Part shown: positions 23,008-25,430 of the stretch, piece after piece
How positions within the stretch are numbered: position 1 is the first letter of the stretch
How the letters are laid out: every line of letters starts with the position of its first letter
Assembly (NCBI RefSeq): GCF_016428585.1
Contig: NZ_JAELVR010000001.1
Coordinates: 62,001-126,000 of the forward strand
Origin: Sedimentitalea arenosa
Lineage (GTDB): Bacteria; Pseudomonadota; Alphaproteobacteria; Rhodobacterales; Rhodobacteraceae
Direction: 5' to 3'
DNA: 64,000 nucleotides
The notes under the pieces: model-generated
Databases searched by the model: none
Told to the model about the DNA's origin: nothing
What the model saw: the letters and a program-made list of their open reading frames with translations, nothing else
Position numbers and translations under genes: made by a program

Positions 23008-23105
23008 CGGGTCGGTCGGGTGTCCTTGGCCGGGAGCCTGTCCGGGCAGAAAAGATCATTTTCGGATCGGGGACAACCGCAAGCGTACGGGATGCGGAAT
23101 TCGAA

Positions 23106-23142
23106 AACGGCGACACCCGGGAGGAGGATAGGTGCCGCCGTT
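23106..23142 (-). ncRNA. CcsR4-like small RNA hairpin (with weak terminator)
   Basis: On the minus strand this hairpin presents CCTCCTCCC (complement of 23119-23127) in a 13-base loop. The stem is made of 23115-23117/23131-23133 and 23106-23112/23136-23142. Four T follow on the transcribed strand, so it may end the transcript. It is the fourth and last in a row of similar hairpins behind the DUF1127 gene, the arrangement of CcsR1-4 in Rhodobacter sphaeroides. Confidence 0.8.
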
Positions 23143-23151
23143 CTCTTCAAA

Positions 23152-23185
23152 CACCGGAACGCAGGGAGGAGGAGAGCGCCCGGTG
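23152..23185 (-). ncRNA. CcsR3-like small RNA hairpin
   Basis: The stem is 23152-23157/23180-23185 plus an inner 3-bp stem 23160-23162/23176-23178 and a 13-base loop that carries CCTCCTCCC on the minus strand (complement of 23164-23172). The stem sequences differ from the other copies while the loop is kept, the sign of a structured RNA family. Confidence 0.8.
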
Positions 23186-23216
23186 CATCTTGTCCGGCTT
23201 GGGGACCGGTGAAAAA

Positions 23217-23249
23217 GGCGGCGACATCAGGGAGGAGGAAGATGCCGCC
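23217..23249 (-). ncRNA. CcsR2-like small RNA hairpin
   Basis: The stem is 23217-23222/23244-23249 with a small bulge, then 23226-23228/23241-23243. The 12-base loop carries CCTCCTCCC on the minus strand (complement of 23230-23238). The loop is complementary to Shine-Dalgarno-like GGGAGGAGG sequences. Confidence 0.8.
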
Positions 23250-23254
23250 GCGAG

Positions 23255-23298
23255 CAACAGATCGCCAGGGAGGAGGAGAGGCGACCTGATCTCTGTTG
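23255..23298 (-). ncRNA. CcsR1-like small RNA hairpin
   Basis: The inner stem is 23262-23266/23280-23284 and the outer stem 23255-23260/23293-23298. The 13-base loop holds CCTCCTCCC on the minus strand (complement of 23268-23276). It begins only nine bases after the stop codon of the DUF1127 gene, so it is part of that transcript and would be released by processing, as described for CcsR RNAs. Confidence 0.8.
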
Positions 23299-23306
23299 TT
23301 CGTTCG

Positions 23307-23516
23307 TCAGGCCGCGTCGTAGGCGGCCTGGTAGGCGACGCGCTTCAGCATGGACCGGGTCAGGCCCAGGTCGTCGAGCTGCCGTGCGTCCAGTGCCGAC
23401 AGCTCGTTGTAGGTCTGCCGGTAGAGCCGGTAGCGGTTGAACCGCGTCATGATGTCGGTCAGCCAGGGCGCGGAATGGTGCGCCGTGGCCGGGTTGGTCA
23501 GGGTAAACGTTCCCAT
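23307..23516 (-). CDS. ccaF1: DUF1127 small protein, CcaF1-like (CcsR host gene)
   Basis: A 69-residue protein. The C-terminal half is the DUF1127 domain: RFNRYRLYRQTYNELSALDARQLDDLGLTRSML, the pattern of an N-terminal helix followed by LSxLDxRxLxDIGLTR. In Rhodobacter sphaeroides the equivalent gene (RSP_6037, CcaF1) encodes an RNA-binding protein and is co-transcribed with CcsR1-4; four matching hairpins follow here. The ATG at 23516 is preferred because AGAAGG lies nine bases upstream; an ATG at 23522 is only three bases from it. Expression is probably stress-induced (RpoH-type sigma factors in Rhodobacter); I cannot fix the promoter. Confidence 0.88.
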   Translation of the reverse strand: MGTFTLTNPATAHHSAPWLTDIMTRFNRYRLYRQTYNELSALDARQLDDLGLTRSMLKRVAYQAAYDAA

Positions 23517-23580
23517 GATCATATGCCTTCTTTGTCACGCAGCGCCTGTTAGCGCCTCAACTTGAGACTGAAGATAGGCC

Positions 23581-23632
23581 ATTGCTGCAGATGCACAATA
23601 GCCCGTGTCTTCAATGCTGCTATGCAGCAATT
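23581..23632. promoter_or_regulatory. Clustered inverted repeats between DUF1127 gene and mrp
   Basis: The 236-base divergent gap holds ATTGCTGCA at 23581-23589 and its complement at 23623-23631, with related half-sites between. Examples are ATTG...CAAT at 23581-23599 and TGCTGC-TAT-GCAGCA at 23615-23629. Such clustering in a shared regulatory gap suggests an operator acting on one or both genes. The binding protein is not identifiable. Confidence 0.35.
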
Positions 23633-23752
23633 GCATGGGTGAAGTGGCGCGTTATCAGGCACTTGCCGGTATATTGAACATTTGGGAGTCGCATTTCCGG
23701 GCAGTCTGAAATAGGACGCTACGTAATGTGCAAGGCTGCGGGAGAGAACGGC

Positions 23753-24823
23753 ATGGCTGTGACACGGGACCAGATCGAGAGCTGCCTTTCGCGGCTCGTT
23801 TTGCCGGATGGCGGCGACCTCGTGGGGCGCGACATGATTCGTGCCCTGACGATCGAGAACGGCGCTGTCCGCTTCGTGATCGAGGCGCCATCGCCCGCGA
23901 TCGCGCAGCAGATGGAGCCCTTGCGCCGCGCCGCCGAGGCGGCCGTGGCGGCGCTGGACGGGGTGACGTCGGTCAGCGTGGCGTTGACGGCCCATGGCCC
24001 GGCGGCGAAACCGGCCGCGCCCAGCCTGAAGATCGGCGGCCACCCGAAGCCGCAGGACGGTCCGACGCGCCCCAGTGGGGTGGATCGCATCCTCGCCATC
24101 GGCTCGGGCAAGGGCGGTGTCGGAAAATCGACCGTGTCGGCGAACCTGGCGGTGGCGCTGGCGCGGGCCGGGCGCAAGGTCGGGCTGCTGGACGCGGATA
24201 TATATGGTCCGAGCCAGCCGCGCATGATGGGCGCGTCCGGGCGTCCGGCCTCTCCGGACGGCAAGACGATCATTCCGCTCAAGGCGCATGGGGTCACGCT
24301 GATGTCGATCGGCTTCATGATCGAGGAGGGCAAGGCGGTGGTCTGGCGCGGCCCGATGCTGATGGGTGCGTTGCAGCAGATGCTGGGACAGGTCGAATGG
24401 GGCGAACTGGACGTTCTGATCGTCGATCTGCCGCCCGGAACCGGCGACGTGCAACTGACGCTCTGCACCAAGTCGCAGCTCACTGGCGCGATCGTGGTCA
24501 GCACGCCGCAGGACGTCGCCTTGATCGATGCCCGCAAGGCGCTGGACATGTTCAAGACGCTGAAGACGCCGGTTCTGGGGTTGATCGAGAACATGTCGAT
24601 GTTCGTCTGCCCCGATTGCGGCGCGCAGCACGCGATCTTCGGGCAGGGCGGGGTCGCGGCCGAAGCCGAGGCGCTGGGCGTGCCGCTGCTGGGGGCGTTG
24701 CCGATCGATCTGGAGACCCGGCTGTCGGGAGACAGCGGGATGCCGGTCGCCCTGGGCGGTGGCGCGATGTCCGAGGCCTATGCCCGGATCGCCGAGCGGC
24801 TGATCAAGGGCGGCATGGCCTGA
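23753..24823 (+). CDS. apbC: Mrp/NBP35-family iron-sulfur carrier ATPase
   Basis: A 356-residue protein from the ATG at 23753. The N-terminal ~80 residues are a MIP18/DUF59-type domain (IESCLSRLVLPDGGDLVG). The deviant Walker A is GSGKGGVGKSTVSANLAVALA, followed by LLDADIYGPSQPRM, the Walker B-like VDLPPGTGDVQLTL and a CPDCG Cys pair that binds the bridging 4Fe-4S cluster. It stores and transfers Fe-S clusters to target apoproteins. The gene appears monocistronic and is divergent from the DUF1127/CcsR locus. Confidence 0.93.
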   Translation: MAVTRDQIESCLSRLVLPDGGDLVGRDMIRALTIENGAVRFVIEAPSPAIAQQMEPLRRAAEAAVAALDGVTSVSVALTAHGPAAKPAAPSLKIGGHPKPQDGPTRPSGVDRILAIGSGKGGVGKSTVSANLAVALARAGRKVGLLDADIYGPSQPRMMGASGRPASPDGKTIIPLKAHGVTLMSIGFMIEEGKAVVWRGPMLMGALQQMLGQVEWGELDVLIVDLPPGTGDVQLTLCTKSQLTGAIVVSTPQDVALIDARKALDMFKTLKTPVLGLIENMSMFVCPDCGAQHAIFGQGGVAAEAEALGVPLLGALPIDLETRLSGDSGMPVALGGGAMSEAYARIAERLIKGGMA

Positions 24824-24967: not shown

Positions 24968-25177
24968 ATCGGGAAATCGTGGGAAAATTCGGCTTCCCTC
25001 TAATCCTACCATATCTAGTGTTGTATGGTGTTGATGTCCGCTAATTATTCCGCTTCTGACCGCTGAATCGTCCCCAGATCTTGTTTTCTTAACGCATCAG
25101 AAGCAAGATTTAGGGAGTCGTTAACTAAAAATCCCTTGCCAGACCATGAATTCCCACGGTATCCCTATATCCATCGG

Positions 25178-25376
25178 ATGAGGAAGACAGCAGGGGCAGC
25201 AAACGACCCCAAGCCAACGATAAGCAGGTTTCATACAGGCTTCGACTTCATCAGACCAAGAGATCCGGCGCGCGAGCGAGCAGACATCCCCCCAGGTGGC
25301 GCGCGCGACTGGACACCCCGCACAGCGGGACGAGGGCGGCGGGTTGATCGGTGGCAGCGGATCAACCCGCCGTTTC
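25178..25376 (+). ncRNA. UpsM-like leader RNA upstream of mraZ
   Basis: In Rhodobacter sphaeroides the small RNA UpsM, about 200 nt, is made from the 5' leader of the mraZ/dcw transcript. Here a -10-like CTATAT at 25165-25170 would give a start near 25178, roughly 250 bases before mraZ. A 13-bp hairpin ends at 25372, followed by TTT, giving an RNA of about 200 nt with the same position and size. Primary-sequence identity to UpsM was not checked, so both ends are estimates. Confidence 0.45.
25337..25372 (+). terminator. Strong 13-bp hairpin in the dcw leader (attenuator/terminator candidate)
   Basis: 25337-25349 pairs perfectly with 25360-25372 over 13 bp around a 10-base loop; only three T follow. 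It lies 58 bases before the mraZ start. It could partially terminate the dcw transcript and form the 3' end of a leader RNA, or act as a barrier to exonucleases. Confidence 0.6.
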
Positions 25377-25430
25377 CACATCCGGGGGACGGAAAAACGA
25401 ACGCGGAGCGCGTAATAAGGGGCGAGGCAG

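Follow-up and report, generated by a model that had tools for sequence, protein, structure and literature searches.

A CcsR-like locus of paired anti-Shine-Dalgarno hairpins in Sedimentitalea arenosa, with two conserved promoter blocks, one of them resembling an LsrB/VtlR-type regulator site

The closest described counterpart of the locus analyzed here is the CcaF1-CcsR1-4 operon of Rhodobacter sphaeroides, in which two-hairpin RNAs with CCUCCUCCC loops are arrayed in tandem behind a DUF1127 gene. The operon has an RpoHI/RpoHII promoter, and the CcsR RNAs are processed, separate molecules with targets in C1 and pyruvate-dehydrogenase metabolism; flhR mRNA has also been reported as a CcsR target. 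Oxidative and other stresses induce these RNAs, and their processing depends on RNase E and CcaF1. For the R. sphaeroides RNA RSs0680a, two stem loops with an anti-Shine-Dalgarno motif in each were described (PMC3927594). Similar CCUCCUCCC loops on variable stems are found in the ar14/NfeR1 RNAs of Rhizobiales (Rfam RF02344). NfeR1, the closest tested relative, silences ntrB by pairing through its anti-Shine-Dalgarno loops and pairs at the start regions of particular mRNAs; its expression requires LsrB, and its promoter carries an LsrB-type box. The VtlR/LsrB regulon of Brucella, Agrobacterium, and Sinorhizobium includes DUF1127 genes as well as AbcR- and NfeR1-type sRNAs, and CAATGCAGCCATGCA is the motif published for Brucella VtlR. 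LsrB, the gene of which adjoins trxB in Rhizobiales, was described as unique to Rhizobiales (PMC11975290).

The window (the whole 64-kb stretch of S. arenosa DNA that was analyzed) contains five copies of the motif CCTCCTCCC against an expected count of 0.86 per 64 kb, and none of the shuffles reached five. Four copies, located on the minus strand at 23119, 23164, 23230, and 23268, make up the array, and the fifth (58171, plus strand) lies outside any hairpin loop. Within positions 23080-23310 (231 nt), the shuffle mean of the motif was 0.02, and four copies occurred in 0 of 5000 dinucleotide shuffles. Folding placed all four motifs in exposed hairpin loops of 13, 12, 13, and 11 nt; the four exposed loops that a preliminary description placed on one strand were recovered, and their range is 11-13 nt instead of the 12-13 bases given there. 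The folding energy of the array region was -95.3 kcal/mol (z = -6.1 against shuffles), with z values of -2.7, -5.5, -2.3, and -5.5 for the individual hairpins. The four stems, when compared, differed from one another in sequence, as the same description had stated. The exact motif occurs 23 times in the whole 3.98 Mb genome, and strong, regular loop hairpins were formed only by these four copies. The remaining genomic copies of CCTCCTCCC were ruled out by folding as array-like hairpins, none being both strong and regular.

A permissive Rfam search recovered the array as two minus-strand matches to CcsR1 (RF02791), the model of which describes two hairpins in an 83-nt RNA. Both matches span the full model (1-83), and both loops of each unit are CCUCCUCCC. 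The first match (23213-23293; 39.6 bits, E 4e-8 in 721 nt) comprises hairpins H1 (23252..23293, loop at 23268-23276) and H2 (23218..23251, loop at 23230-23238, followed by UUUUU). The second (23102-23189; 33.9 bits, E 2e-6 in 721 nt) comprises H3 (23151..23186, loop at 23164-23172) and H4 (23102..23145, loop at 23119-23127). Comparison with the CcsR covariance model, which had been proposed as a check, was thus positive by E-value and negative at the curated cut-off, both scores being below the Rfam gathering score of 65.3 bits. The ar14 model likewise gave two matches (43.1 and 39.5 bits), which together cover all four hairpins and fall under its gathering score of 58.8 bits. At the gathering threshold, the Rfam scan of the window returned a tRNA alone and missed the array. 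Weak matches to 6C, ar7, and Scr3202 (E 0.01-0.5) were dismissed as loop look-alikes.

Since a CcsR RNA consists of two hairpins, the four hairpins of the window correspond to two CcsR-like RNAs (H1+H2 and H3+H4), and the four RNAs CcsR1-4 of R. sphaeroides should have eight. A relative with top-scoring CcsR1 matches, the R. sphaeroides-like locus L045, contains four units and eight hairpins. The earlier statement that the hairpin number equals that of R. sphaeroides was wrong, given the two-hairpin RF02791 model and the published structure (PMC3927594): the numbers are eight there and four here. Hairpins come in pairs, so the size of an array should be counted in two-hairpin RNAs.

The RNAs are located behind a ccaF-like gene (23307..23522, minus strand) encoding a 71-aa DUF1127 protein (Pfam PF06568, 54 bits at a cut-off of 23.3), in contrast to ar14, which is an independent transcript of three hairpins with a sigma-70 promoter in S. 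meliloti. The open reading frame has possible starts at 23522 and 23516; a DUF1127 gene directly upstream of the hairpins had been correctly recognized, with its start placed at the second ATG (23516), while the frame opens at 23522. A cardiolipin synthase gene lies downstream, as in other loci of the genus; this arrangement, the number of RNAs, and the covariance score below the cut-off distinguish the window from the R. sphaeroides operon. Taken with the two CcsR1 matches and the family-wide conservation described below, the DUF1127 gene sustains the original assignment to the CcaF1/CcsR type. The locus is very probably a CcsR (also 'cuckoo' or CIN1) stress-regulator locus with trans-acting, mRNA-pairing RNAs, and it extends the described family to one more genome.

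Conservation was evaluated across the family, taken to be Rhodobacteraceae, in a sample of 299 genomes. Of these, 250 have RF02791 matches at E <= 0.001, often as tandem units about 105-120 nt apart, and only 10 of the 299 attained the gathering score; two or three units per locus are present within the genus. In the H2-type stem, which was compared over 40 units, 8 of the 11 predicted pairs changed on both sides with pairing kept in at least one sequence. The H1-type stems keep at least nine pairs with many pair types, the pairing itself not being independent evidence, as these stems were located by folding each sequence. The loop motif is near-invariant across the family. A near-invariant loop combined with compensatory stem changes is the pattern seen when both the hairpins and their loop are under selection, and we propose that stem sequence is free to drift while stem length and loop are constrained.

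The core of the anti-Shine-Dalgarno sequence, CCUCCU, is contained in the CCUCCUCCC loop, and it had been suggested that the loops sequester or mimic ribosomes. Such general action, by mimicry of the 16S rRNA 3' end or by non-selective occupation of Shine-Dalgarno regions, would lower translation under stress, and the 4 to about 15 loop copies per locus would suit titration. We nevertheless consider it quite improbable, because the near-invariant nine-base loop reaches beyond the ribosomal core and has few exact partners, numbering 23 genome-wide with a handful at plausible starts, and because the related NfeR1 acts on particular mRNAs with redundant motifs. An anti-Shine-Dalgarno function as such is retained in the favored reading, in which the loops would pair with selected mRNAs. 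Candidate targets were sought as 8-9 complementary bases at plausible starts, with gene names assigned from the look of the sequence and not from a family search. They comprise a leuC-like gene (L075), a xanthine/uracil-type permease-like gene (L079), a TRAP-type permease-like gene (L083), and, with full nine-base matches, a flavocytochrome-c sulfide dehydrogenase-like gene (L089) and an acyl-CoA ligase-like gene (L090). As putative CcsR targets, these five genes are leads only.

The divergent neighbor of the ccaF-like gene is an mrp/apbC-like gene for an Fe-S carrier (23753..24823, plus strand; Pfam ParA/NUBPL, 323 bits), which is context and lies outside the RNA locus. Among 36 loci from distinct genomes, selected mostly for high CcsR1 scores so that the fractions do not describe a random sample, mrp is the neighbor in 34, and a DUF1127 relative was detected at the corresponding position in 31; in all 31 loci that have both genes, mrp is divergent. 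Divergent mrp is also shared with L045. This adjacency, kept in nearly all loci examined, would agree with a functional tie in which Fe-S supply is co-regulated with CcsR. Such a tie is nonetheless doubtful and rather unlikely, as the CcsR loci L060 and L073 have no mrp within reach and the conserved blocks of the intergenic gap sit on its ccaF side. The divergence, singled out in the preliminary description for its bearing on regulation, is real but amounts to conserved synteny, and what stands out in the gap is a conserved, regulator-like double site. Further along the window, a gap of about 400 bases (25013-25430) precedes an mraZ-like gene at the start of a dcw cluster and corresponds in position to the UpsM leader RNA of R. 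sphaeroides; an Rfam search of this leader gave no match.

The alignment of 31 mrp-ccaF gaps revealed two nearly invariant blocks, A and B, both read on the minus strand, which are new in this analysis; no paper joining CcsR with a LysR regulator was found among the openly accessible papers searched, and an earlier report of the promoter blocks is possible. Block A (ATGCNNNTGCTGCATRGCAGCATTG, 23612..23636) resembles an LsrB/VtlR box: when its reverse complement CAATGCTGCYATGCA is set against the Brucella VtlR motif, the family consensus agrees at 14 of 15 bases and the window at 13 of 15. It is a dyad close to that motif and is predicted to be an LsrB/VtlR box, serving as an upstream LysR site. 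Block B (ATTGTGCANNYGCAGCA, 23583..23599) is proposed as a second LysR site lying over an RpoH-like -35 element, the TTG of which is at 23596-23598. An RpoH-like -10 element, CCTATCTT, occupies 23571..23578 on the same strand, 20 nt from the TTG, and reads CCCATGTT in many relatives. The arrangement of TTG and CCTATCTT is termed RpoH-like on the basis of the sigma-32 consensus, and TTG is important in the RpoH -35 element; RpoH-like promoter elements are a further likeness to the R. sphaeroides operon. A promoter scan of the region returned no sigma-70-type promoter. Contact with a sigma factor may account for part of the conservation of block B, since this block overlaps promoter elements.

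The 18-base core of block A has one exact copy in the genome, and the next best site has three mismatches. A strict two-block pattern was present in 134 of the 299 family genomes, and the reversed control in none; a slightly different strict pattern gave 0 hits among 237 sampled genomes of the class outside the family. Of the 57 genomes with both a block pair and a listed CcsR match, 54 have the RNAs downstream of the blocks, on the same strand and no more than 1.2 kb away. None of the genome's other three DUF1127 genes carries the blocks. Several side observations concern the distribution of these elements. In one genome (G152), the strict two-block pattern occurs three times (C1:11686, C24:5439, and C48:12038). 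A second exact block B, ATTGTGCAACTGCAGCA, is present in S. arenosa without block A (L117; G000:C23:23926-23942), flanked by a CoA-lyase-like gene on one side and a divergent DUF1611-like gene on the other. Another DUF1127 gene (L027/L147; G000:C1:315414-315894) and a LysR-type regulator gene are immediate divergent neighbors, and neither block A nor block B is present at this pair.

CcsR hairpins a short way behind the promoter blocks were observed in L067 and L166 and in genomes G047, G092, G116, and G226. In L067 the hairpins follow directly and no DUF1127 gene is recognizable; no DUF1127 reading frame was seen between blocks and hairpins in L166 either, which suggests that the site is constantly associated with the RNAs and not with the protein. 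This bears on whether the hairpins mainly serve the ccaF mRNA itself, as 3'-end or stability elements (terminators or exonuclease barriers), with no action in trans. The UUUUU after H2 would be in keeping with such a role, as would H4, a strong GC stem (-27.7 kcal/mol, z -5.5) with a 3' arm ending in UUUU; H4 is a possible terminator, and the negative result of a terminator scan was set aside because the scan is blind to loops of more than 8 nt. However, terminators need no invariant nine-base loop in every hairpin while the stems diverge, L067 keeps blocks and hairpins without the gene, and the CcsR RNAs of R. sphaeroides are separate molecules, so that a purely 3'-terminal role is very improbable. 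Trans-acting RNAs remain the preferred reading.

A candidate for the protein acting at the blocks is the LysR gene P0001 (G000:C1:406396-407298), located outside the window and one of 28 LysR genes in the genome. Its best solved relative is A. tumefaciens LsrB (PDB 9HH1; 240.7 bits, the next being 99.7), of which it is the reciprocal best match among the 28 LysR genes. The two proteins share 41% identity overall, with 48 identities among the first 66 residues, which indicates a very similar DNA-binding domain. P0001 has a match in all but one of the family genomes (298 of 299); an earlier study of Brucella reportedly describes VtlR in its title as conserved among alphaproteobacteria. P0001 and 29 relatives lack the four redox cysteines (including C144 and C273) that A. 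tumefaciens LsrB possesses, and 28 of the 29 relatives carry a different cysteine (190); any redox sensing would therefore differ. In contrast to lsrB of Rhizobiales, P0001 (contig C1) is not beside trxB (contig C20), and no lsrB-like gene was found in the trxB neighborhood. Lacking both the redox cysteines and the trxB neighbor, P0001 may answer another signal. Diverged P0001 was found in 24 of 49 genomes without a CcsR match versus 7 of 250 with one, in counts that ignore kinship and in which some low P0001 scores may stem from broken contigs. Diverged or missing P0001 tends to accompany the absence of CcsR1, for example in genomes G005, G008, G020, G053, G058, G088, and G097.

Based on the sequence comparisons, it is somewhat probable that in most of the family a near-universal LsrB/VtlR-like LysR regulator controls CcaF-CcsR through an upstream site and a site overlapping the -35 element. 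The likeness to the VtlR/LsrB regulon would then lie in the box, which is closely similar, and in a LysR protein whose DNA-binding domain is very similar; the difference would be that the predicted box of the window drives DUF1127 and CcsR as one unit. Alternatively, the blocks may serve a regulator other than P0001, or block B may merely be an extended RpoH promoter. This tentative alternative carries appreciable weight in view of the RpoHI/RpoHII promoter known for the R. sphaeroides operon, the number of LysR genes in the genome, and the missing redox cysteines, but it is rated below an even chance, since block A is located upstream of the promoter as a dyad close to the VtlR motif and P0001 is the near-universal reciprocal best match of LsrB with its DNA-binding domain well preserved.

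For the locus as a whole, we infer the following course of events. A promoter at about 23570-23640 would give rise to the ccaF-like DUF1127 mRNA, with the two CcsR-type RNAs of two hairpins each in its 3' part. Cleavage between the units, performed in R. sphaeroides by RNase E with the DUF1127 protein, would release the RNAs. Each of them would present the anti-Shine-Dalgarno sequence CCUCCUCCC in rigid loops, and these would base-pair with selected mRNAs at Shine-Dalgarno regions of the GGAGGAGG type, blocking translation. In a further step, held with only slightly better than even confidence, P0001 bound at blocks A and B would activate the promoter together with a heat- or oxidative-stress (RpoH-type) polymerase.

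The promoter architecture outweighs the RNA locus in importance, as it makes a CcsR switch besides the heat-shock sigma factors directly testable; the pair of boxes and the near-universal regulator are the part that specialists might not expect. If the predicted control is true, the regulation of DUF1127 proteins and anti-Shine-Dalgarno RNAs by a LysR protein would be an old circuit of Rhodobacterales and Rhizobiales. The architecture also suggests that a regulator of virulence and symbiosis in Rhizobiales may have a counterpart with a similar job in their marine and phototrophic relatives.
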